NCBI RefSeq assembly: GCF_019649055.1
Contig: NW_026570224.1
Coordinates: forward strand, 930,001-994,000
Direction of reading: 5' to 3'
Origin: Paramacrobiotus metropolitanus
Taxonomy: Eukaryota > Tardigrada > Eutardigrada > Parachela > Macrobiotidae
DNA length: 64,000 bases
The stretch's first letter is position 1. Each line of letters opens with the position of its first letter. Below are positions 26,467 through 56,600 of the stretch, piece by piece. The notes beneath the pieces were generated by a model. It searched no databases. It was not told the DNA's origin and was given only the letters and a program-made list of their open reading frames with translations. The translations under genes and the position numbers were made by a program.

Positions 26467-28071
26467 TCAAAAATCACTTGCAAATGTCCACCAAACCGAC
26501 CTGTAGATTCCAGATACTACCGCATGGTCACGTTCGTACGGTTCGAGGGTGATCTGTTCAAGCGGTTTAACTTTTTCACTCTGTAGCTTTTTAACTTCTT
26601 CCGCAAAGACCGCTTCCGGTTTGGCTGTGCTGTCAATGCAGTTGGCCTTGATCGATATGACGACATGACCACCGTTTTTCAGGTAGTGATGGGCGTTAAG
26701 TGCCACAATACGTGCTTGATCTGGTTGGGCAACATCCGCAAATATCGTGTCCACCATATCAACGATCATCCGATACTTGTGAGGATGCCGGGCATCCTCG
26801 ATTATGGGTACCACATTCGTCCGCTTTTTGGCAACATTGATCAGGTCTCGGCCGGAACGATGGGAAAATTCAACAGCATAAACCAAACCTTCCTACAATA
26901 AATTATTTATTGTTGTTAAAAATTCAAATTTAGTTATTATGTAATTGAACAAATTTATTATTATGAAATAAACTTAATTTACCATCACTACCATGGCAAA
27001 CGCAAGAACAAGGATATAAAACTGAGCAAATGCCAAACGCAGTACGGTCGCTTTCTACGAAACTTCAAATAATACGCGTATACAAGTGTTACCAATACGT
27101 AGCAGCAAGCTTCAAACACTTCGCAAAAATATCTACCTACCGGGCCAACAATATCAGCTACATGGGAAACAGTAGTCCCGGATGCCGCTCCGAGATATAG
27201 GACTTTGCTTTTTGGTTTGATCCAAATATTTTCAATTCCAGCCATGATAGCTGCTCCAAGCTTGGAGCGGAAAGGATTCCAGATTCGATATTCTGTTTTC
27301 GTTCCTTCCGCACCCTGTGAAAAACCTTTCCTAAACGCTGTTATAAGTAGATGAAACTACGTCGGCTTACATCAACACTGATACGTTTCTCGCCATACAC
27401 GGAATCACCAGGTGTAGTGTTGATAGTACACAGCGCGTCTTCTTTGCCCCGGGAAATGAAAATTCCTGGATGCCGATGGGGTTCCACAATGACATTTTTG
27501 CCTCCTTTCATGCCTGCACCACCACCACGGCCACCGCCACCTAGAAATAACTTCATTCCACTATCGCATATTTTATCGCACATTTTTAACGAGATATTTC
27601 AAATTTTATTGGTACTCCGTAGTCAGAAATCGTCAACCCCTAATTCCAGCATGCAACCAGCGCTTCGAGGTATACCAGGATTTTAAAAGTGTTTGCCTTT
27701 ACGATTAGCAGAAGCTGACAACCAGCATTCTCCATTTCAAGGTTCCATAAAGCGCAAAGACCACTTACGTCCACCTCGACCGCGGGGACCTCCGCGACCT
27801 CCACCGCGGTCCCCGCCACGGCCGCCGCGAAATCCACCGCGACCGCGATCACCAAAGCCCCCGCGGCCACCACCAAATCCTCCTCGTCCGCCTCGATCAC
27901 CTCCCCGACCCGCTTTAAATCCTCCACCACGATCGCCGCCTCGAAATCCTCCGCCGCCACCACGAAACCCTCCACCGCGTCCGCCGCCGCGGTCTGGTCC
28001 TGTAATTGAAAACGCATTGGTTTGCCACAGGTCTTAAAGGGTACTGATTTCCACGTACTGTCGAATCCCAT
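26467..28071 (-). CDS. FBL: fibrillarin, box C/D snoRNP 2'-O-methyltransferase
   Basis: Five exons on the minus strand: 28059-28071, 27769-27999, 27371-27540, 27141-27314 and 26467-26892, giving 337 residues. Fibrillarin methylates rRNA 2'-hydroxyls guided by box C/D snoRNAs in the nucleolus. Exon 1 encodes only MGFD plus one base. A 59-base intron then leads into a glycine-arginine-rich domain ([12 protein letters not shown]-type repeats, about residues 5-90). The methyltransferase follows, with [20 protein letters not shown], the SAM-binding [17 protein letters not shown] (176 onward), [14 protein letters not shown] and [10 protein letters not shown]. Without the mini-intron the frame runs into a false, non-GAR N-terminus, so the splice is needed. 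Human fibrillarin is 321 residues. Confidence 0.96.
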
Positions 28072-29022
28072 TTTGGACTTCTTAATTAAACTGATGACTT
28101 CCGAATAAATAGCGCACAGATACTTAAACTAATTCTGAGCAACACCAACAAGTAGCAAAAAAAGATCGTGAATGCTGCTGCACTTCTATTGGAAAGATTT
28201 ATCATTAACAATTTTAAGAATTAAGATTTTGCTTTTTTTGTTACAACACCGATTTTCGGATGAATCGTGCCGGCAGTATGTAAAACCGTTCGTGACGAAA
28301 CGCTCGCTTCATAATAATGCTTAAATTGCACGAATGCACGCGCAGTACATACTTGACTAGGTACGCTACTTGCGGTATAAACCGATTAATAAGTACTATT
28401 AAGTAGTTTGTGAGACATCAGCTTTTTTGCGAAAGGTCGAGCCCAGCTTCCTTTGCAACCTGCATATTCCGAAATCTAAAAAACTGCAAAAACTTTTGAT
28501 TTGCATTTTCTTTTGGATTTATTGAAGCTTTTGATTTCTGTATGGTCATTGGTTAGTAACCGGCTGCTACTAACAGTCTTCTAACAGGGAACCGGAAATT
28601 CAACATCCTCTTCTTTTTATTCCAACTTTCTTGTCCGTTGCAGACGCAATATGTATGTATAGATTACAAGATCTGTGCAGAATGTAGTAACGATAAGTAA
28701 CACGTATAGCCATAGAACAAAACGAATCTATTTATGTGACAATACGTAGAAAGGGAAAAGAAGTCCTGTAGCAATAATGGAAACTATCTCAATAACGTTT
28801 AAACTCAAAACAAACAAAAGAAAAGAATTAAGTAACGGTGCCGCATACGCACACCATCCAACAAGAACTCGACAGAAAATTGATCTGAAAAGCTGCAACA
28901 AAATAGCACAGTCTGTGGAAAGCAATACGAATGGGACGTCAAAATTCTAAAAGCCAATTAAAAACTTGTGTCGGTTATTGACACTAAATTCACAAAATTA
29001 TTATTAAACAAAATCTGACCAC
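28072..29022. other. fibrillarin upstream region and 3' flank of the ALKBH4-type gene
   Basis: About 950 bases with no recognised exon. It should contain the fibrillarin promoter. Confidence 0.5.
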
Positions 29023-31697
29023 TCAGAGACTTCCGCCGCTTTTGACAACCTTCCCTTGAAAAGTATGGGCAATACTAAGCATCTTCTTTCCTACGGCCTC
29101 GCGTGCACCGCCTTCTTTAAAAATGTCGCTTAATTCGCGAAACACCATCATGATCTGCTTTTCGTGGACATCCGCTGACAATACCGAATAGTTCCAATCG
29201 CGGCGTACTTCATCGGTAACGATTAGTAGTGATCGCCGCGGGATTTGTACTCGAACAGGTCGATACACCTCCTTCCGTTCCCATTTCCGTGGAGAAAACG
29301 TCAACACCGTATCTGCCAGTATACTGAAGATCACTACGCGGTTACCCCACATCCACTCATCCTCCACACGGGACTGTACAGATGACATCCTGTCGCTGGT
29401 CAGTTCCCAGTTGGACACAGCCACACACTGAAAACCATCTAATTCTTTCCATCGGCTAAAGCGGCCTAGCAAGAGCTGAGCAAAATGGGGTAATCCTGTA
29501 AAGTTCTGCAGATTAACACGCTGTCGTTGATAGTTAACCGAAGGTCCGTAGTCTTGGCGCCGGCATCCTGATCCGCCGTCCATCCACATGCGAGCATTGA
29601 TACATTTAGTCAGGTCGCGTTCCTCATCACCGGTTAAAAACTCCGGCCAAAATGACAATTTAGCTGAAAATTCAAGATATAACCACTAGAACTACATACC
29701 ACGAATCTAAAGTACACAGACAAATACCACAATACCGGAACGGTCAACTAATACACAGCTCTTAAAGACTTACACAACTGTAATGGCTCGCCTGCGTCAT
29801 ATCGATGTCGTGGATGCAATATTCTGGCAAACTCAAAATCCAGCTGATAAGCCATGTTGCACGTCATGCAATGGTCATATACCATAGCATTGGCGGGAAC
29901 CGTAACATTGGTAGCGGCCGGAAGACGATGTTTCCAGGCCGGAAGATTCCGACACAGATCACACCGACTGCCACCCTTGCAGGAGCATGGCTTAACGAAA
30001 TTATCATAAAAATCAGAGATAGCAGCCTCCTGCCCGTTCTCATTTCGGACAACATGATGGTATTTCGGAGAGACGCTCGGTATTTCCACAGATGCTAGAT
30101 CGGCCATGGTTGTCAGGTAACTGGCACACGTTTTCTCCATAGATTCTTCCGTAACGCTTTCGGATTGAGCCGCACGTCGTGCTCGTTGGGCGGCACGCCT
30201 CTCCATTCTTGGTTGTACACTTTTGCCCAGCAGACCAAGTAACTGCTGCGATAAGTCCTTTGGATGAGATCGATTAACAAGGCCAGTGGAACCAGTCCAC
30301 TGGAACGTTTCGGCCTTAACATCCGCTTTTACACAAGTATCACTATCCAATGATATCCTCGAATCTGCCGACAATCCAACTGACTGCAAGAAATCGTCCG
30401 TGAGTATTTTCATATCCACGGGGCCAAGAGATTTTTCTAGCGGTGGTAGAGATAAAATTTTTCGAATCTCTTGGATTTTCCCATCAGGCGGCCCGTCGAT
30501 AAATAACGCAGAGGGAGGAATTACAGTATCGGTTGAGATGGCAACCTGCAACTGCATAGTCTGTTCGCATAACGATTCTGTCAGATTAATATCTTCCTGA
30601 TCTTGTTGGGACTGCCGCGCCTTCCGTTCGACGGCCAATTCTTCTTGGAAAGTTTCAATGCTGGATGCTTGAATACCCTTGGTATTTATGTTCTCGCGGA
30701 AAGCCGCCGCTTCGTGACAGATGGCTTCGATAGTCTGTGTAGCTGAACGCAGATCGGTGGACAGTTCTTCGGAACAGTTTTCGAACAAGTGATCCAAACG
30801 TGCTTTGCGCTCTTCCTTCGTGAGAATGCGGTTGACGGGTTGACCGTTAAAGGGTGCTGCAGTAGGCCGTGCAGGGACCTTTTTTGCTGGATTGGCAGCA
30901 CGTCCGGCTTTACTCATTGTAAGCCGTTTCCGTCGAGATTTGTTTCGACGATTTGGCTGCAATCATAACAGTGTTTTTCAAATAAATTTAAATACGGTCA
31001 TAGACTCGTAGATATTCTTTAAACCCCTTGGTTTTGTCTACCACCTCACGCAGCCGTTCAAAACCCATAAAAATAAGCATCGGGAAAACTTGAACACAAC
31101 CTACTATTAAATTATTAATATTTTGAAGTGTCCGATCGAAAACTGCAAACTGGATAGATGCAGTAAGAGTAAAACGACACTTAATATTACAAGTTACATG
31201 CGCAAAATAAAGCCATTTATCTTTATAAACATACGCTTTTTAGGATAGAGTACCAAAGGTAAAACAAAAACCTCGTGCATAATGAAAAGCCAAAAGACAA
31301 CGCAATGTCGCAATCATACCTTGGGTTTTTTAATGGCAGGTGATTTGCTGGCATTGATTTCTGATGCTTTCGACGAAACCGGCGGCCGGCCGCGCCTTTT
31401 GGCTGGTACAGGTTCGGGAACTTTGAATTCTGCTTTGGTAGCAGCGGCCGAGTCCTGCTCCTTCGGAGCTGCATTATCTCCTGCGGGGCGAGCAAAGGAA
31501 GCACCCAGCTGCCACGACATGGGCTCTGGTTGGCTATCCTCCGAATCATCAACCATCTCGTTTGTCGACACACCGCTCTGCAGAAGAAGGGTGTCGTTGT
31601 TGGATGCCGGTCCATTGTCTGTCCACATAGATTCGGTTGCAGAAGGTTCAGAATTATTTCGAGTCTGCAACGCAAAATCACTAAACAACAATGCCAT
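29023..31697 (-). CDS. AT-hook/charged N-terminus joined to ALKBH4-type domain (likely pseudoenzyme)
   Basis: Three exons on the minus strand: 31320-31697, 29774-30956 and 29023-29663, giving 733 residues. Exon 1 is Ser/Pro-rich with an AT-hook (PAKRRGRPPV, near 100). Exon 2 begins basic, then has a helical charged region (KARLDHLFENCSEELSTDL...), faintly like the kinetochore protein DSN1 though I cannot establish that. It ends with CSCKGGSRCDLC at 450-461, matching the ALKBH4 N-terminal cysteine motif. Exon 3 matches the ALKBH4 dioxygenase (CRRQDYGPSVNYQRQRV, FTGLPHF, EDEWMWGNRV, ending LSIAHTFQGKVV). The Fe(II) ligands HxD...H of the family are replaced by R619, E621 and Y679, and the first Arg of the RxxxxFR stretch by Q690. 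ALKBH4 demethylates actin K84me1 and has DNA and RNA roles; enzymatic activity here is doubtful. Homology of the C-terminal part is firm, and the meaning of the N-terminal part is open. Confidence 0.8.
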
Positions 31698-31949: not shown

Positions 31950-32213
31950 TCAGAAATAGTTTAAATACTGCATTTCTTTACATGAGTAAGATTGATTGAT
32001 TATAATGTTGCTAAAATTATAAAAGAAGCCGAAAACAGCGGCACAGCCGAACACTAATGGTAAGTAATTAAAATAAGAAACAGACGGTGACACTTGACAG
32101 TACCGATCCACAGACGACACCAAGCTATCAAAAAGGCCCAAAACGCCCAGCCGACTTACAGATTCTGGCAAATGAGATCCGGATACCTGGGCCTGAATTC
32201 CAGGTTCCTCCAT
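31950..32213 (-). CDS. hypothetical small one-helix protein
   Basis: The ATG at 32213 opens 87 residues (start MEEPGIQAQVSGSHLPESVS), with a hydrophobic stretch (YLPLVFGCAAVFGFFYNFSN) near the middle, ending about 250 bases from the start of the ALKBH4-type gene on the same strand. No family was recognised. It may be a real small membrane protein, the first exon of a longer one, or a chance ORF. Confidence 0.3.
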   Translation of the reverse strand: MEEPGIQAQVSGSHLPESVSRLGVLGLFDSLVSSVDRYCQVSPSVSYFNYLPLVFGCAAVFGFFYNFSNIIINQSYSCKEMQYLNYF

Positions 32214-34125: not shown

Positions 34126-35220
34126 CTACACCCGCGTAGCTAAAACCATGTTCGATCGTTTCCGCTCTTCGACCTTTGCTCGCCATTTAACCGCCGCATA
34201 AACCACGCTGTGAGGATATCCATGGTCTTTCGCTTGTTGAAGCATTTTACTCAGCGGAAGGCTATCCTGTCTGGTGCCTTCCTGATGGGTTACCGCTGAG
34301 GCTGTCACGACCACACTGGTGTCACTGGGCTCTGTTGTCACTCTATCCGGATATTTTCGTCTAAGCCAGTCATCCGTCCCCAGTATCCCCACCAATACTA
34401 AAATGCAGATGAATATTCCAATCAGTGGATAGAACCAGCGCAGAGGATCTTTGACTTTAAGAACTGTGCTCGTGGTGTCGTTGCCACTCTCCCCTACTGC
34501 CACGCACGTGTAATTCCCGGCGTCAGCATACTCGACCGAATCGAAAATGATTAATCCACTGGGCTGCTGTTTGTTGTTCCGTTGGACTCGGGAATTATTT
34601 GCCGGAAAAGCTACGTTATCCAATGACCATAGCAAGGTCACATTTGGAGTGCCGCTTTCGATGCATTCGATTGTGGTGGGATCGCCTCGATCAACACGGA
34701 TCACTTTTGCCATCTGTAGCACAAATGGTACGAGTTTCAGCGCGACCCTGTCCGACATTGTAACACCACTAGCAAACTGCACATCGCATTCGTAGATCCC
34801 GGCATGATTGTAGCCCGCTGCGTGGATCGTCAGTGTTAGGTCGCCGTTCTCGCGCTTGGAGTAATTGGGGCCGTTTGTATCCAGGAGTGTCATTGTGTGA
34901 TTCAGACTCCCAAAAGGGCTGTACCTCCATACCACGTCTTGAACAGGCGATGTCTGAAGTAACTGACACGAAATATTCAGTGGCTTCCCGTTAGCCCGAA
35001 AGGTTACCATTGGTGGGCATTGCAAAGGCCTAATCGTCTCTTCGCGCGCTTTCGGTTGCAGTATGTTGGCGGTTCCGGCTTGTAATTTAAGCACTTCCCC
35101 ATTGTTACTATCAGTAACCTTTGGTGGTAAAAAGCCATCCGTAACAGGAAAACTGTCCACGATGTGGCACAAATTTAAAAATAGTGGCACAAAATGGATT
35201 TTGACAGAGTGCAGATTCAT
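34126..35220 (-). CDS. basigin/neuroplastin-like Ig membrane protein, copy A
   Basis: Intronless, 364 residues, ATG at 35220. There is a signal peptide (about 1-24) and a spacer. Ig domain 1 follows (C85, W98, C145 in GIYECDV), then Ig domain 2 (C186, W199, C239 in DAGNYTCVAV). The single helix at about 261-281 (RWFYPLIGIFICILVLVGIL) is followed by a short basic cytoplasmic tail. The WxYP(L/F)xG start of the helix after two Ig domains resembles basigin, embigin and neuroplastin, chaperones of monocarboxylate transporters, though the glutamate typical of their helix is absent. Several NxS/T sites suggest glycosylation. A similar gene with the same membrane segment lies at 45.6 kb on the other strand. 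Confidence 0.8.
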   Translation of the reverse strand: MNLHSVKIHFVPLFLNLCHIVDSFPVTDGFLPPKVTDSNNGEVLKLQAGTANILQPKAREETIRPLQCPPMVTFRANGKPLNISCQLLQTSPVQDVVWRYSPFGSLNHTMTLLDTNGPNYSKRENGDLTLTIHAAGYNHAGIYECDVQFASGVTMSDRVALKLVPFVLQMAKVIRVDRGDPTTIECIESGTPNVTLLWSLDNVAFPANNSRVQRNNKQQPSGLIIFDSVEYADAGNYTCVAVGESGNDTTSTVLKVKDPLRWFYPLIGIFICILVLVGILGTDDWLRRKYPDRVTTEPSDTSVVVTASAVTHQEGTRQDSLPLSKMLQQAKDHGYPHSVVYAAVKWRAKVEERKRSNMVLATRV

Positions 35221-38110
35221 TCAGCCTCAAATCTTTTGAACGAAGTAGTTACCCCTGGAGTGGAAATCAAGTATTGATTAAGAAAGTCTTATTTTCAACT
35301 TCGTTGACAAACTGATACGCAGGTATCACAGGTAGAATTTGGTTTATAAGGAACAGTTAAAAAATATTGTAAAAAGTTCGAAAATTAACCACTTTCAGAC
35401 AGATTAATTTTGCCCTCTTGCTCACGTTCACCCCTGTTTGCACGCTGCTGCTGTTTACCGTGAACTTCGGTTTTACAGCACACGTCGTAACAAGGATATT
35501 TAAATTAGAAGTGATTATTTTTATTCCACGCATGCTTTTTCAGTGTTTTTGTAACGGCAGTTGTTGATTAAGTTATGGTGCTTAACTCAATCCACCGGAT
35601 TAAACCAATTACCGTAGTACGTATCAAATCAAGCCCTGACCTAGCAACAATACCTGCAGTCACTTATCTATTTATTTTTACATCGTTTTTTTTCTTAGAA
35701 ATTCTTATTTACGTACGTAAGTATGATTGTGTATAATTATTGCACAAAGGTAAGTACAGTACTACTCGTATGCATGCACATAAACTATATACTTCGAAAA
35801 AAAGGTAAACATTAATTTTTACCATTAGTAAACGTTGTACGGAAGTATGCAAGTTCATGAATTTTTTATATGCGAAAATAAAGCGTGAAGCCCGCCATGA
35901 AAAGCTGCACGTCCTACATTTAATATACGGAAAACGGGGTTCGATTGCCGAAGACAGTCGTATACGAACGAATGTTATGTTTCTTTAAGGAATTAGACCA
36001 ATTCGATTTAGTGGTTAAATAATATTATCTGTCGCCGCGTTTGTTACAGCTTACGAAATTGTCAAGCGTATATTTAACGAAGTTTACTTTCGTTTGTATA
36101 AAACTATGCGACACAGCAGCGATAAGGCTAATATTGAAACAACCTATAAAAACTGTTTACGTTTTGTTACGCGAGCAAACGAAACTAAACTAACGCTCGG
36201 ACAGCTATACGCCAAGATTTACTGCATGTCGCGTAATAACCCAAAATTCAATAAGGCGGCACAGCACCACCGCACAGGATAGAATAAAAATAACACATAA
36301 AACCGAAGTCTCGAAACGGAGATTTTTTTTATTGCTACTTCACTATGCTTTGTTGGGCATTGTAATTTTTGCGTTTAGTCTTTACCAACTTTAATTTCTC
36401 TAAAAGATGTGAACTATGCAATCGCGCCTCTGGAATGCGCACACCTTTTCCGAGGCATTCGTTTTTATGTTACTGAGAAATCCTGTAGTATCATTAAATA
36501 CCCCCTGCAGTATACAGTACTTACTCGCGCGATTGGGTTACGGAGTGACAATTATAACTAATCTACAAATCGTGAGTTCTCCACCCAGTGATGGTTTGAC
36601 GCGAAGAAGCTAGACATGAACCTACGTTTTGGTAACTAATTAAGCTTTATTTGGCGCTAATTTTGACATATATATCCTTTATTTTCTGTTAATTATTAGT
36701 GAGAATCAGTAGTGAGAATTATTGATAGTGATTATTATTAGTTTTATTAATTATTAGTGAGAATTATGTTTTAGTTTTTATTTTTTGTTGATTATTAGCG
36801 AGAATACTGCAGAAAACTGCCAAGTTAGATACTTCAAAGTTAACAGATCTTAGCTATTAATTAGTTATTTGTAATTGTACCGCATGTTCTTATTATCATA
36901 ATTACTGTTTTAATGCTTGGGGCTACTGTTTTATCGCCTTGTCACGCCACACGTGATTCACGAAAAAAAAACAATTAAATGGAACAGTTAAAAACAAGAT
37001 TACTGCATAATTAATTATCGAAACCAGTACTTACTCTCAGTTTTTCCAAAAGTCGATAAAGTACATAACAAATATTATCTACGATAGCCAATACATTGTA
37101 TCTATCATTAACTTTTCCGCGGTTGTAAGTAAAATATTTTTATCGACTGTTCCCGCCCAGTTCCGAAATGCAGACGAATGAGTACGCATACCGGTCGAAC
37201 TGAACTGGACACGGCATTACGTTCCAGGATACGTAGCTTGCTTCTGCCGTTCTGCGCTCGCCGGTATTCATATACTGTACGTACTGTATAAGTTTATCAT
37301 CTGTTTCTCTAATAAGACTTCGGAGATTCACTTTGCCACTTATTCTTCTTGCGTAACGTCCTTTCGTGCAGTATGGGAAATGATATCTTACGCCTAAATT
37401 TGTTCTAATGCAGTAAATTAATATATTTAATGGATACTGACAGACGGTTTTCGAGACGTTTTACAAAATTCAGTAACAATCCAGCGCGGTGTATTTCGGT
37501 GTGGAACAGGATGTACATTGAGAATAGTTTTCTGCGTCGGTCTATGATTAGTTATGGATTTTGGTAATCGACATGGGATCGTTTTAACTATCAGAATAGT
37601 TCTTTTTTGCCAGGTAAGCGTAATAAGGCGCTTTCGGTCAGGAATGTTGTCGCTAGCGCGCGTAAAGTTTTGCATTTCGCCTTGCAAGAACAATCATTTT
37701 CTTGCTCCATAGGTTAATTTTGTTGCCTTCTACGCTTCCGGTGTGACTCCGCATTCCGCATGCGAAAGAAATGGTCGCAATGAGGTATTCCCATGATTTC
37801 TTCACCACAATCTATATATACACCATTCTGCATTCTACGTTTATGGAAACTTAATAATATTAATTTAAATGAGTTACTCGTATGAAGTACATATGTGCGC
37901 CGCCGGTAAAAGCGGCAGTAAGCAATAAATTATCACTGAACATCAATGCCGACTTACGACTTCTGAAATTGTGAAAGCGTCGGTTGTAGCCTACTTGATA
38001 CGAGTACAATTACTGTATGCAAGCCCTCGGCTCGTATAACAACCTCAGGATGGTGTCTAATTGACTTGCACGTTTTAAAAAATGCTGGATGTCATTTTTA
38101 ATTACCACAG
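35221..38110. other. non-coding stretch, probably including the undiscovered TIKI first exon
   Basis: About 2.9 kb. TIKI needs an upstream signal-peptide exon ending in phase 0, and none could be picked with confidence. Imperfect repeats of TTATTAGTGAGAAT lie at about 36690-36800. No other exon was recognised. Confidence 0.4.
36690..36805 (+). repeat. imperfect TTATTAGTGAGAAT repeats
   Basis: Three or four diverged copies of a roughly 14-base AT-rich word (ATTATTAGTGAGAAT, AGTAGTGAGAATTATT, GATTATTAGCGAGAAT). Confidence 0.6.
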
Positions 38111-41100
38111 CGATCGGAGAAGAACTCTTTCTTATGGACTGTGGATAAAATTGCACCGGAAGTTGATGGATCTCTCGATCAGGCGAGACGTCCGGCGCGG
38201 CCAGCTGTGGCCCGATCATACTTTTTTGGCACCATACATGTGCCGTACAGCAAGGTCTGGGATCATGTGTCAAGAGCCAGCAAGCAGGCTTTTCACGAGG
38301 CTGACCATGTGATATTTGAACTGGATCTAACTAATCCCGGCACCGTAAAGGCGTTGAGTAGTTGTCAAATGTTGCCAAACGGTGCGGAGCTGTCAAGCCT
38401 TTTACCTGGTGATCTCTATAGTCGCCTGAAAAAACATTTGGATTACATAGAGAATATGATGCCAATATGGATGACAGATAATCGGCAGGGTAAGTAATAT
38501 GGATCTTTCTAAGCCCTAAACAAACCTCGGCTTATTTTATAACTTTTGTTTGTTCTTTTGTTGCTGGAATGTTTCTAGCACTATAAAAGTAGCGCGAGAT
38601 TGGATGAAACTCGATAAATTACTGCCATCAGCAAAATTTGAATAGATTTTTCATGAAGTTATGCATTGTGTAATTAACAGCAGGTTTCGAATAATTATTA
38701 CAATTTAGGTGCCTCTTGTTGCAGTATCATTTGCGATTCGCAAATACTTTAATTTTCTCGGCATAAAGTTGTTTAGCTTTTTTGTTTTCGTTTCAAGTTA
38801 GATCACGTATTAGCAAGCTGCGAAGCTGATACAGCTTTATAAATAATTAAATATCAAGCCGAAATGTCAAACTACTTATACATCTTTGTGTACTGCTACA
38901 AAATTATCGCCGACTCTGGGCATCATGCCGCGTGCGTCAGTTGCCTATATTTTCAAAGGTCGCGGTCTCTATGCGGAATATCTATTCAACGCGATAACGA
39001 ATAACTGGCAGAGAAAGCGTCCTGTCTGGATAATGTTGATGATCAATTCGTTGACGGAGAGCGATATTAAATCGCGTGGTATTCCGGTGCTGGATTTGTA
39101 TTTGGCACAAGAAGCGGCACGATTACAAAAGTTTACCGGTGCAGTGGAACACGTGGAAGAACAATGTCTGCCGTTAAACAGCATGAATCTGTCGCAGGTA
39201 AAAAGGTGTCTGAAGTGGGCACCGGTTTGCTAGAATACTCATTTCACGCAAACTAATAAGAGTACACGAGTGCAGAGTAAAGACTGCACGATTGTTAATG
39301 AATGGCGGACAGGCGTCCTTTACCTGTTGTGCTTTCTTAAGGCCGCACTTTTGTCGAAAGTCCCGCTGGTTTCGTAAATGATTAGACAATAATTCATCGG
39401 CTGCTCTAATACACACCGTCCCAGCGCACAAAGCATCTGGTGGGTGATCAAATCTTGTCTTCCGATTTTGTTATCTCTTGTGATTAGGGCGCGAGCCTGT
39501 AAAGCACTCTGTTGTTCTAAGGATAATACACACATCACAGGACACCGTAATCCGGTCAATATGAAATCCTTATTTTTTGTCGGTTACAACTGCGTCCAAC
39601 AGTGCCGACGCGATGCCCTTCATCAATTGTCGGAACTGTGAATGCTCGGTAAAACATCGTAAATACGCGCGAGCGCACATGCACAGAACACACCAGAGTG
39701 CCTCACGAGGCAATGAAGCACTCGTAACTTCCTAAAACCTTTATGTTAAAATTAAATGTATTAGACAAAATTAATCAGGGTTTCATGCTTTTTTACATTT
39801 TAGATGAGGTGGCATTCAAGGAGAATTAATTGTACAGCCAGTGATAGTATATTATGTTTGCGTCGGGATGTATTAATTTTGCTGTTTATAACTTTGTAGC
39901 AGCTTATGTTTGCTGTTGTCTGGTGTCGTAGTATGCATTGGTTACTGCTCGATTAGACCTTTTGATGATGCTGCTCGATTATACCTTTTGATTTTTATAT
40001 GCTTACAGTTTTTAATTTAATGATGTTTTAATAACTGAGCAGTTCTGTTTATACGTATTTTTCGAAGCCCGATGCAGGGAACTTATCGTACGGTAGTTAA
40101 TTACGTACACAGGAGGTGCATGAATCTGCCCCTGTTTGATTAGCGAGTGACCTTTGTAAAGGCATACCTTTTCAAAAGTAGGTATAAGGATGCCGTGGTT
40201 ATACAGACAGGCATCGCTGGTATGTATATCAAGTTTCCATAAATATGCTCGTGCGGACGTGCACGATCATTACCGAATGTTATGGAAGCGCTACTTAATG
40301 TATTTGCACAGATATTGAAAATGTCCAATCTCGCCGGTTTAGTAGACATTTAGAATCGACTTCAAAAGAGCAGGCACTTTGCTGCTGCTGGCTTGAATGT
40401 ATGAGCAAACATTCATTGTCAAGAGATTCCCACTGAATAACAAATTCTGGTGTGACTTGTGTACTGCTGCATAGTTAACCTTCCTTGTTTTCGTGCTGAT
40501 AAAAGCTTGCCTCACGTATATTTCTACATAATTTACTATATTACTAGTGTGTCCTGCAAAATAGCAATGACCTTTGGTTTGGCTAGGTGGAATGTTATAT
40601 TATGGATAAATACACTACAAAGTGCGCGCAATATAACCAACCTTTATGACATTATGCTCTCAACGGAGGCGTTTTTTAAGTGTGGCTTTCTAGTGGTGTA
40701 GCTGTATGGCAAAAACTGGTTCCATAAACTAACGATTTCCTATAAATATACAACACTTAAAAAAATCGTAACTTTATCTTGGGTGCTATTTTGACTGCGA
40801 ATTCGCTCAGGTCTTTAGTGCATATAATACGATAAAAATCGCAAAAATTTCCTATTCACCTGTATTAACATGCTTTGTTTGTTTTAATGTTTACTGTCGT
40901 GTTCAATGAAATTGCCGCTGAAAGAAATCTTTACTTTAGACAGCCGCTATAGATGACCTGTCAGTGGAAATTACTAGCAGTGACTGATAGACCTTTACAA
41001 TATCCAGCTATGGAACGTGCGGTTTCCTTAATGGTAGCGAGTTGCACTTAAAATTAGACTTCATGTTGAATACTTCCCAACTACGGGCCGATTGACAGCT

Positions 41101-44488: not shown

Positions 44489-45637
44489 GATTTAATTAGG
44501 TTTTACAAAAAGATTTTTGCTTCGAAATTTCCAGAGGAGATTGCTATGATTGTGTCAAGTGTGCACTGTAATTCATGCAGAATGTATTTCTATCTATTGC
44601 ACAAAATAAGCTTGCGCAGTTAATATAGAACTGCGAAATGCTATAGAATTCTCTTAGAGATTTACAAAAGGTCATGCAACAAATGCTTAACCTTGCACAA
44701 TTTCTAAGACACTGAAGTAATTAGTTAGCTACCTAAGTAACTATGTGGATTGCGGAGAACGAACAGAAAAATTAGAATGTCAGTGCTATACAGATTCCAA
44801 CAGATCGAGGCCCACTTTTCTAATTTGCATAGTGTTCTCGAATCCAAATCTGAATACGTACTATGACCAAAATAAATAGCACCAACAACTACGGTAGCTG
44901 AATTAATATAATGTTTTGATGTTTAGTTTAAAACAGCAAAGAAATTCAGAGTTTGTTTTTTTTAAAATTCGTTCACGATGTTACCATCCGCGGCAGCAAT
45001 CAAATTTCGATAGCTATCAGGTCAAAGAACTGCAGTGAATCACTGGGTAAGTCGTGACAAACCTTTTTGTCTTTTGTTAGCCACGCTTATTCATGCTCCT
45101 AGTGTACACTTTAATATCGCCGCACCGGAAGTTCTCATGGTGCAGTTGTGCAACTGGATGTTTAATATGCGCCAGAATTCTGTGATGTATACAGTACTAC
45201 TTACAATTTTCAAATTTTAACGCATACATTGGTTTCGGAGCAGAAAACTGTGATATCAAAAACAGTTGTTACGATGTCTAGTTTAATGCACTTGTTAGTG
45301 TACTGAATTAAAATCCGCACAAGTTTTCAGTCAGTAGAAAAATTAATGTACGGACTCGCACTTTGAATTTCGTCAGTGGATGTTGCACTGCAATTCCACC
45401 CAGCTGCAGACATTTTTGACACCCACAAACGCTGCATGTTTTTGGATGTTACATTTTTTGGCGTTTGGGATCAACGATGCATCATGGTCGCAATTTAAAA
45501 GGATTTTACGCATATTGCGCTGGAAGATTGAATGAGTAAGGTTTCCCCCTTTGACAATCACAGTTCACGAATTCCCATATTTTGAAACTGCCTTATCTCC
45601 ATTTGATAATTGATACTAGGTGGTATTGATCGTCAAA
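44489..45637. other. TIKI 3' flank and upstream of Ig copy B
   Basis: About 1.1 kb with no recognised exon besides the TIKI poly(A) candidate. Confidence 0.5.
44871..44876 (+). other. candidate poly(A) signal of TIKI
   Basis: AATAAA about 400 bases after the stop codon. Confidence 0.35.
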
Positions 45638-46588
45638 ATGAATACCACAATATTTTCATCAGTGTCGCAGTATTTGTTGCTGATATGCATACTACAACTT
45701 TCCTTCCTGATTAACGAATACGGAGCGGTAAAATGCCCGTCTGCGCACACATTTCGCCTTGGGCACAACCCAACTACCACTATTGTTTGTGCTGGCCAAT
45801 CTTCCTACTCGTATCTCGCAAATGTAACATGGAAATTTACAAGGTTCAGTACAGCTAACTTTCCGGAAGACGAAATAATTATTTCTCCATCACACCGGTA
45901 TCAGGTGCAAATTGACGGTGATAGCACTATGCTGACCATTCGCAATCCGGCGTGGGCGGATGTCGGACACTACAGGATTGTCTTAAATGAAACGGACGAA
46001 GCCGTAGTGGAGCTACAAGCCCTGCCTTGGATTTTTATCCATCCGGCCAACGGTATACACTTCTACGCGGGCACCGATCACGTCGAGATCGAGTGCCTGC
46101 AGGCGGCACCGCTACCAAATGTGACCTTTTCGTGGTTGCGCGATGGAGAAATTATGAACGAGTTTTCTCATCCACAGATTGGATTTTCGTCGAATGCCCA
46201 AAACAACACCAATGCAAAACTGATATTTGGCACGGTGGATTACTTGGATAGAGCGTTGTACACCTGCGTTGTGAGTGGTCAATATGGCAATGACACTGCA
46301 AACTTGCTGCTGCGCGTGCGCAGTCCCCGATGTTGGCTGTATCCGTTTACCGGATGCTTCGGTTTGCTTTTTATACTGGCAGTCATACTTGGCATTGATG
46401 AGTGGCGAAAGAAACGATCGAGAAACCGGGAGCAGGATGATTTGAAAGAGGTTTTTGCTGGAGGAAACCAAGTACGCGAAGGAGATGTGAAGAATTTTCC
46501 AGAGATTGTGGCGGTAAATGTGCCACCGAAAGGCGAACCTTCGTTTATTTCTTACAAGGCTCTTCAAGATCGCGAAATTCATGACTGA
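45638..46588 (+). CDS. basigin/neuroplastin-like Ig membrane protein, copy B
   Basis: Intronless, 316 residues. I start at the ATG at 45638, the first in frame, directly before a signal peptide (QYLLLICILQLSFLI). Ig domain 1 has C51 and W65, but the usual DxGxYxC ends as ADVGHYRIV, so its second cysteine is missing and the disulfide cannot form. Ig domain 2 is intact (C153, W166, C210 in ALYTCVV). The helix at about 232-252 (CWLYPFTGCFGLLFILAVIL) resembles copy A, and the following GIDEWRKKRSR parallels GTDDWLRRK in copy A. The cytoplasmic tail is about 60 residues. The shared helix and absence of introns argue for common descent with copy A. Confidence 0.78.
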   Translation: MNTTIFSSVSQYLLLICILQLSFLINEYGAVKCPSAHTFRLGHNPTTTIVCAGQSSYSYLANVTWKFTRFSTANFPEDEIIISPSHRYQVQIDGDSTMLTIRNPAWADVGHYRIVLNETDEAVVELQALPWIFIHPANGIHFYAGTDHVEIECLQAAPLPNVTFSWLRDGEIMNEFSHPQIGFSSNAQNNTNAKLIFGTVDYLDRALYTCVVSGQYGNDTANLLLRVRSPRCWLYPFTGCFGLLFILAVILGIDEWRKKRSRNREQDDLKEVFAGGNQVREGDVKNFPEIVAVNVPPKGEPSFISYKALQDREIHD

Positions 46589-53653: not shown

Positions 53654-56600
53654 ATGTCCCCAGGAAACTCTGTCAGCGCAAAGTGGCATATTTTACCTGT
53701 TTTTACAATACTGTTCATCTTTTTTGTCCATCCACATTGTTCCACTGGAGCATTGGCGACTTGGATGTAAGTATAATATTCTGTAAAACAGAATAGGATA
53801 TTTTTTTCGCTCTAAAGTCTGTAATTTAACTGGCTATTTATGCAGCCAATCACGGTAGCATATCTTTTCTCTTTCATTGCTTTTGTTAGTTTAATAAATA
53901 TGCAGTGCTTTTGTTTCTCATTAGTTAATCGAAATTAATAATTATCCAGTCAGTAACTCTTTCTTGTCCATAACATACTCAAAATACGTGATTTGCGCAA
54001 CCGATGCGGAGACAAATATGCGTGATGACCTTTATAACGATAGCATGACTACTTTAAGTGCTTCTACAGTACAAGCAGTTTCTAAATGAAAAACGACACG
54101 CGGTTTATTTTTTAGAAAATTTAGATTGCGTGGTTTGCAGGCATATCGGCATTGCCGGATCCAGCCTATACCAAGCTCCTGATTTTGTACTAAATCCCCA
54201 GATTCACAGTGATACTCAAAATACACCGGATACTGCCTGGTGCAGTACCATCCCCGGTCTGGTTGATCACCAGCTTGTGCTTTGCCGGCGCACTCCCATT
54301 GTTTTCGCTCAAGTATCCAGTGCCGCCAAATTGGCCATTATGGAATGCCAGAATCAGTTTCGTCATGACCTTTGGAATTGTACCACCACTAATGATCATA
54401 CCGTCTTTGGAAAAGTGGCTGTTAAGGGTAAGTAATCCACTATGTAATAATAACCTTTGACGAATTGTACAACATATGAGAAGTTTAATGGGCAGTCGTT
54501 TTCTCTGAGGTGTGTCACGATCCACGGCGTTTAATTTTTCTAATATGTACATAAGCATGCAGTTATTCAAAAATTAAGCTCTGAGCGACAACTTTCGTTC
54601 CCGCCATACAGTTATCCGAAAATTCTTTATACCGCGTCTATAAATATATTTTAAAATTGTGTTCATTGGATAATATCCAGGTTAAAATTTTTTTGTTGGC
54701 TTGTTCGAGAATCCAGATTAGACTTTACATGGTATCACGGAGAACTATGTAGAGATTATTCTTACATCCGACCTCATTGTACGCTTTTCGCCGGTTATAT
54801 CAGTTTGGGAAACCACCGGTCGACTTCTGTTTCAGGCAACAGGGAAACGGCCTTCATTGCGGCCATCTCCAGTGCCGCCGTGGTCCACGCGGTAGTCCGC
54901 GCCTGCAGTTCCGGTAATTTAACGGACTGCTCATGTGATATGCGCCGTGAAGGCCAGCGTGATAATGTTAACGGATGGAAATGGAGCGGCTGCTCGGACA
55001 ACGTGGAGTTTGGCATGGAATTTTCGCGTCTCTTCAACGACGCTCCGGAAGACATTAAGCGTCATGATTCCCGCAGTATACGGGATGTTATGCACTTGCA
55101 CAACAAAGCAGCTGGACGAATGGTATGCGACGTCTGTAGTCATGTGTCAACAGGGACTTTGGCACAGTTTGTTTAATTGCACGCGTTAACACAAACGCAG
55201 ATTTCAACCGTGTTGACAGCTGCTAACTCAGACATGTGTGCAATGGGACGACACAACACCGTCGAGAGCGTATGCGACCTGTTGGGTTAGCGCCTGCCTT
55301 AACACTTTCTGCAGCAGTGACCTCCAATGAATTTTTGACGTTTATTGATTTAAGGGACCAGTTTGCAGACGGCAGAGTGTACCCCGCAGTTTAAACTGAA
55401 CGGCATAGCATAACAGCTTTTATGGACTAGAAACGTCCATTTTCGGGGTTGAAATGTCTAGGCGTAAAATCTGGCACTAGATAGGAACTGCGCCACCATA
55501 ATGTTTTATGACCGGCAGCTTTTCTTAAATCCTAACCGAAAGCGGCGCTGTAGCTGGTGTTGCGGAGATGCAGACCGCTGATGCTTGTCCATTTCAAGTT
55601 GACACGACTTACACCGACAATGGAAATTTTACAAATTCCCTTGCAATGAATTTCAATCCAACAAATGAAATTTACAGTGCTCACTGACGCGTCTAATATT
55701 TTCCAAACGCAGACGTGTGCGCACCAGTCAGCCAAAGACTAAAGTGGACATAGCACAGCGATCCCCGCGTCATAGTATTTATCCTCGATTACCAGTAGGC
55801 GTACTTATTGCATCGAAATCAAAATTCACGATTGTAGTACTATGAATTATTTTGAATGCTTCAAAAGTTCCACAACAAAGTTTCTATAAACAAACTATTG
55901 CATTTCATACGGAAGATATATAAATATGTGAAGCATTTCTAACACCAGAAAAGATAACTCCTGTTCCTTATGATTCGTGAACATCCAGGATCAAAACGTT
56001 TGGATTTGACTGACATCTGATAATGTGTTGGCAGGAAACTGCGAACGAAAGCTAGTTTTCTCTACAGTAAGCATTCAAAGTAGAACGTTTACCTTGTCGC
56101 AAATACCCAATATCCGGTCTTGTTTCCGAATAATGTGACGACATATTTAACGTAACAAATCCATTTTAATGACGTAACATTGTAACAAATTCATTTTAAT
56201 GACGTTCAAGGTAGCTAAAATATGTGTTCAGAAGAACACTGTACGAGTATTATAATAAACTGCTTGGCTTTCACGGCTTGCGCGTGGCCAGGACAGGACA
56301 TACATGCATATGCTTTTGCAATATGTACATCGAATTTTGGGCTATGTCTTTCGCAGTTATATGAGCATTGGTCTTCCACTAGCATTCCTACGGTTAGGAT
56401 AATGGTCTGAAACCAGGCGACTCTCAGACAATGAACTCATAATCAATTGACTTGTTTTTCTCTTTTAACAATAGCGGTTAAAGCAGGATACGACCTTTTT
56501 ACGACTAATGTCTAATAGTAATTTGTCCTCAGACGATCTCACAAATACGCTACTTGATCGTAAAAATTCCCCGCCATCTAATTCGTTAAGAAAACCGCGT

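Follow-up and report, generated by a model that had tools for sequence, protein, structure and literature searches.

A predicted catalytically inactive paralogue of ALKBH4 with an AT-hook-like motif in the genome of the tardigrade Paramacrobiotus metropolitanus

The stretch of DNA analyzed here (the window) comprises 64,000 nt of Paramacrobiotus metropolitanus contig NW_026570224.1 (positions 930,001 to 994,000). Encoded on its reverse strand is a gene for a protein with a long N-terminal extension, a cysteine cluster and a C-terminal ALKBH4-type domain (Table 1). When the gene was rebuilt, the borders of the last exon proved exact, with a TTTTCAG acceptor before position 29663 and a stop codon that ends at 29023. 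The preliminary description of this locus had reported an open frame for that exon, and we find that all 731 codons of the rebuilt gene are open. Exon 3 is contained in a 404-aa open reading frame, the longest of the 46 frames of at least 120 aa listed in the window. The gene model with an extra first exon (model A) has introns of 522, 363 and 110 bases, all three of which have GT-AG borders. Starting translation at 31697 instead gives exactly the residue numbers reported previously (R619, E621, Y679 and Q690), and those of model A are lower by two (R617, E619, Y677 and Q688). Model A numbers are used throughout; the choice of start has no effect on the dioxygenase domain. Directly downstream and on the same strand is a gene for fibrillarin (26467-28128, with PF01269 at 26467-26892), in which a Gly/Arg-rich exon was recognized by eye.

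Table 1. Exons, motifs and active-site positions of the ALKBH4-like gene (window coordinates; NMAD-1A residues for comparison).
Feature	Position	Strand	Basis or remark
Possible first coding exon of model A (MEEPGIQAQ), uncertain	32187..32213	-	In-frame ATG, GT donor, in-frame join to the acceptor at 31664
Alternative start codon	31697	-	Gives a 733-residue protein and the numbering of the preliminary description
Exon 2 (model A), N-terminal extension	31320..31664	-	Open frame between a TTGCAG acceptor and a GTATGA donor
AT-hook-like motif KRRGRPP, aa 98-104	31380..31400	-	One RGRP core; absent from the intact copy
Exon 3, remainder of N-terminal extension, Cys cluster, start of ALKBH4 domain	29774..30956	-	394 open codons
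Basic patch KSRRKR, aa 130-135, nuclear-localisation-like	30924..30941	-	Missing from the intact copy
CxCx5CxxC cluster, aa 448-459	29952..29987	-	4/4 Cys, spaced as in the intact copy and in NMAD-1
Exon 4, dioxygenase core of ALKBH4 type with replaced catalytic residues, followed by the C-terminal domain	29023..29663	-	HMMER, alignments
L606 at the 2OG-binding Tyr (Y173)	29401..29403	-	Three-way alignment
R617 in place of H184, the first metal His	29368..29370	-	Three-way alignment
E619 at the metal Asp (D186)	29362..29364	-	Three-way alignment
E621 in place of M188, the methyl-base sandwich residue (the intact copy has Thr)	29356..29358	-	Three-way alignment
I630 in place of S197, a 2OG contact	29329..29331	-	Three-way alignment
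Y677 in place of H239, the distal metal His	29188..29190	-	Three-way alignment
Q688 in place of R250, the first 2OG Arg	29155..29157	-	Three-way alignment
R694, equivalent to the second 2OG Arg (R256)	29137..29139	-	Three-way alignment; sole one of seven retained

The assignment of exon 4 to the ALKBH4 family, made previously from the letters of the exon, agrees with searches against the PDB. The best match to a query consisting of exon 4 plus 7 codons of intron is NMAD-1 of C. elegans (E 1e-30). With the upstream cysteine cluster added to exon 4, NMAD-1 is matched at E 4e-34 (positions 20-291 of the 305-residue chain). NMAD-1 is an ALKBH4-type 6mA demethylase with a solved active site (PMC10815869). 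We used the structures 8HBB/8HB2 for comparison and fixed the numbering by means of the crystal mutations E109K/Q112K/Q114K, which place K at the expected positions. The homology extends over the cysteine cluster, the dioxygenase core and the C-terminal domain, with identity at 60 of 183 aligned core residues. Motifs common to NMAD-1, the window protein and an intact ALKBH4 encoded elsewhere in the same genome include QDYGP, VN, W.WG, P.RSL and RE. The Pfam AlkB model did not match the window protein and matched the intact copy only barely (E 0.036). An AlphaFold model of the exon alone, made from the single sequence and no alignment, has a mean pLDDT of 41.

The active site was compared in a three-way alignment of NMAD-1, the intact copy and the window protein. 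The preliminary description had read the HxD pair as RVE, the distal His as Tyr and the first Arg that binds 2-oxoglutarate (2OG) as Gln, and each of these readings was recovered. HMMER sets R-V-E on H-Q-D of NMAD-1, Y677 lies on the distal His and Q688 on R250. Thus, where NMAD-1 and other ALKBH4 proteins have H, D and H, the metal triad HxD...H is absent from the window protein (R617, E619 and Y677), and only one of the four non-metal 2OG contacts (Tyr-173, Ser-197, Arg-250 and Arg-256) is retained. Altogether, 6 of 7 metal and 2OG contacts are altered, as is M188, which is replaced by Glu. The predicted loss of chemistry is therefore supported by more replacements than were originally claimed. 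In the NMAD-1A study, several alanine substitutions at metal and 2OG residues abolished activity, with the exception of R256A. M188 is thought to sandwich the methylated base, and M188D/M188E caused a dramatic loss of activity, for which the authors blame weaker base binding (PMC10815869). We consider this domain very probably a dead enzyme.

Tyr and Glu can bind metals, and it is conceivable that the domain holds a metal via Glu619/Tyr677 or works by some other chemistry or mode of action. The second 2OG Arg (R256) is retained. The family motif is written as Hx(D/E) (PMC10815869), and a change from Asp to Glu would not by itself preclude activity. However, the replacements extend to both His ligands as well as to the Tyr, the Ser and the first Arg, and the alanine substitutions in NMAD-1A were inactivating at such positions. 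Thus, an unusual metal site is highly improbable.

No intact His-x-Asp or distal His was placed elsewhere in the domain by either HMMER or the three-way alignment. We also considered a different exon that might restore the site. A protein search of the whole assembly (169.8 Mb, 533 contigs) at E<=10 returned three matches, none of which is an alternative exon at this locus, and this candidate was rejected, although gaps could hide such an exon. Repair by RNA editing was rejected as well. A-to-I editing could yield an Arg codon only from the CAG of Q688, and could not repair the CGT and TAT codons.

The three genome-wide matches correspond to exon 4 itself and to both exons of one other gene, which encodes the intact ALKBH4. 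Thus, the second, intact gene that the preliminary description had proposed to look for does exist (G000:C2:1401932-1402699). It encodes a protein of 341 aa in two exons, separated by a 141-base intron after codon 166, and matches the exon 4 protein at E 1e-30. All seven metal and 2OG residues are retained. The two copies are 36-37% identical (77 of 209 core residues) and have the same spacing in the cysteine cluster. The intact copy, unlike its relative, lacks both the AT-hook and the basic patch, and the two genes have no intron position in common among those mapped. Given that an intact ALKBH4 is encoded elsewhere in the genome, the window gene represents a paralogue and not the loss of the enzyme. 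By sequence comparison, it is a diverged paralogue of ALKBH4 and a predicted pseudoenzyme; ALKBH4 activity may still be present in the animal. The intron of the intact copy, which falls between RRKQ and DYGP, is absent from the paralogue; this would fit either an origin by retroposition or intron turnover.

General loss of ligands from the AlkB proteins of this animal was considered and rejected, as two other PF13532 relatives retain HxD and the distal His when inspected by eye. One is an ALKBH1-type fragment (C8) with I-H-Q-D and a distal His in ...DFHAGMRV, and the other an ALKBH8-type fragment (C2) with A-H-V-D and AWKHG (both placed by eye). A single fragment of each type was identified by PDB search. 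Among the four AlkB relatives seen, ligand loss is peculiar to the window gene. The genome search with PF13532 gave three matches and missed both ALKBH4 copies, and its list of AlkB relatives is thus incomplete. For relatives of the paralogue in other genomes, pattern searches gave 13 matches in genome contigs and 230 in viral contigs, and none of either set was confirmed.

Catalytic residues are normally the last to change. There are 183 ungapped columns in the three-way alignment, and NMAD-1 and the intact copy are identical at 81 of them. The window protein retains 43 of the 81, distributed as one of 7 catalytic columns versus 42 of the 74 others (Fisher p 0.047). Adding a provisional vertebrate ALKBH4 sequence leaves 62 columns that are invariant in three intact proteins; the paralogue retains 34 of these and has lost 6 of the 7 catalytic ones (hypergeometric p 0.028). 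The statistics are modest, and they suggest that the replacements cluster at the active site.

The gene could be a redundant copy that is being eroded under relaxed constraint, or an assembly artefact. The seven separate changes in the active site are unlikely to be read errors. Decay would account for the lost active-site residues and for a fast rate of evolution, and if its onset were recent stop codons would not yet be seen. Under LG, the branch of the paralogue (1.26) is about three times as long as that of its sister (0.40), and private changes relative to NMAD-1 number 38 in the paralogue versus 17 in the intact copy (p 0.006). These values fit relaxed constraint as well as new function. 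However, the copies differ at 46, 35 and 72% of 209 codons at codon positions 1, 2 and 3, respectively, and of 33 four-fold sites in codon families common to both, 26 differ, which amounts to saturation. When neutral evolution was roughly simulated, a frame of 731 codons stayed free of stops in 0 of 200 runs at 0.1 substitutions per site and in 1 of 200 at 0.05. Given the open frame and the saturated silent sites, we infer that selection acted on the frame during most of the period after the two copies diverged. Support for the conservation claimed in the preliminary description comes from the open frame and from the saturated divergence between the two copies of one genome. The saturation dates the split and not the loss of the active site, and an enzyme that died late would look alike. 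Thus, the paralogue is probably not a pseudogene; we consider it very likely that the gene is functional, and decay or artefact improbable. In a tree of four sequences, the two copies were joined in 74% (LG) and 81% (WAG) of bootstraps, with an AU value of 0.24 for one rival topology. An older split of the copies may also be compatible with this tree, which does not fix the age of the duplication.

NMAD-1A has 291 aa, compared with 731 aa in the paralogue, which carries an N-terminal extension of about 440 residues with the AT-hook-like motif and the basic patch. The extension had no significant match in Pfam or the PDB; a search of aa 1-518 against the PDB at E<=10 gave five matches, the best at 0.74, which we take to be chance. 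Disorder-promoting residues make up 59% of the first 455 residues versus 46% of the remainder. KRRGRPP has an RGRP core flanked by basic residues, and we take it to be an AT-hook core in line with the usual definition of the motif. The motif predicts DNA binding, and Pfam listed no AT-hook for the window protein. In shuffles of the protein, RGRP arose in 1.2% and an RGRP directly preceded by K/R in 0.3%. We presume that KSRRKR is a nuclear localisation signal. Exon 3 matched only itself in the genome at E<=1; the same search missed the cysteine cluster of the intact copy, which indicates that short matches escape it.

The cysteine cluster corresponds to a region described as a 'hypothetical zinc finger domain' in NMAD-1A, where it raised activity and aided nucleosome binding, and the C-terminal domain of NMAD-1A was vital for nucleosome binding (PMC10815869). 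A C-terminal stretch ending in FQG is present in both the window protein and the intact copy.

A binding or scaffold role was proposed for this gene in the preliminary description. The idea fits the retention of the cysteine cluster and the presence of AT-hook-like and basic motifs in the extension; the role itself is one that we infer. Our preferred reading, to which we give a probability of roughly 0.47 and hence slightly less than even odds, is that the protein is a non-catalytic adaptor derived from ALKBH4 and tethered to chromatin. The basic patch would mediate entry into the nucleus, where the AT-hook would grip AT-rich DNA and the cysteine cluster and C-terminal domain would grip nucleosomes. 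The dead ALKBH4 fold could then act as a platform for protein docking, either by recruiting ALKBH4 partners or by barring active ALKBH4 from certain chromatin. The former metal site may have become an Arg-Glu-Tyr arrangement that keeps the fold together without a metal.

By analogy with the human protein, the ALKBH4 fold may provide a surface on which partners dock independently of any chemistry. Two-hybrid screens with human ALKBH4 found transcription-associated partners, and a screen with the H169A/D171A mutant found a very similar set, from which EIF3C was lost and in which ENL was weak (PMC3493508). That study also states that the partners were not verifiable by pull-down or co-immunoprecipitation, and the authors rely on co-localisation (PMC3493508). 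The docking analogy is therefore weak.

A natural parallel is Epe1, a putative demethylase of the JmjC type in fission yeast, in which an iron ligand was lost and the role in chromatin is non-enzymatic. Epe1 has a natural His to Tyr change in its iron triad and acts non-enzymatically against heterochromatin, and the Tyr itself matters; JARID2 is named as a more extreme mimic whose role is structural (PMC7192584). JmjC proteins belong to a different oxygenase subfamily, so the likeness is one of mode of action and not of kinship. In its most specific form, which we regard as unlikely, the proposal would be that an ALKBH4 copy has become a stable protein that is bound to chromatin and antagonizes the active enzyme. 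An Arg-Glu-Tyr ionic lock would keep the fold metal-free and the AT-hook and nuclear signal would anchor it on DNA. The protein would then be the counterpart of Epe1/JARID2 within the AlkB family.

A dead paralogue could also plausibly work as a reader or decoy, with a pocket that binds the methylated substrate of ALKBH4 (6mA DNA or methyl-lysine) and shields the mark from the active sister. The AT-hook would put such a protein on DNA, and Flip2 still has one aromatic residue (F128Y) and two basic ones (H130R and K132R), with Gln at K129 and K131. However, R117 of Flip1 is replaced by Cys, and the pocket itself is altered (M188E, Y173L and S197I), the first of these changes being among those that strongly reduced the activity of NMAD-1A (PMC10815869). 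Because the base pocket is altered too, we consider a reader or decoy distinctly less likely than the adaptor, and unlikely overall.

Alternatively, the dead copy may pair with intact ALKBH4 and regulate its activity, in the manner of a prozyme. Both copies are encoded in one genome, and dead paralogues that activate their partners are known in trypanosomatids (PMC5201418, PMC3663545). NMAD-1A, in contrast, is mainly a monomer in solution and offers no known interface for reuse (PMC10815869), which makes a partner role for the paralogue less likely. Such pairing would also leave the large extension with its DNA-binding-type motifs unexplained, and it seems improbable.

Several substrates, including 6mA DNA and methylated actin, have been credited to ALKBH4. 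If the adaptor reading is true, this animal has a natural ALKBH4 minus its chemistry, with much of the scaffold kept, in addition to an intact copy, and the two jobs would be separated within one organism. In the open literature searched, ALKBH4 was never found together with tardigrades or with AT-hooks. ALKBH4 was also absent among the matches listed for literature on paralogs, catalytic residues and pseudoenzymes. The main text of the P. metropolitanus transcriptome paper contains no mention of ALKBH, AlkB or dioxygenase (PMC11191345).

The window also encodes two proteins with Ig domains (Pfam Ig families), at 34126-35220 (-) and 45620-46588 (+). These are long open frames on opposite strands, about 10 kb apart, and their products are 29% identical over 238 aligned columns. 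By eye, both resemble basigin/neuroplastin and have an acidic G.D[DE]W motif after a membrane-like segment. Also present is a gene for a TraB-family protein (PF01963; TIKI-like by eye) at 38102-39233 (+), about 15 kb from a Wnt gene (PF00110) at 54058-55176 (+). TIKI proteins are proteases that cleave Wnt.
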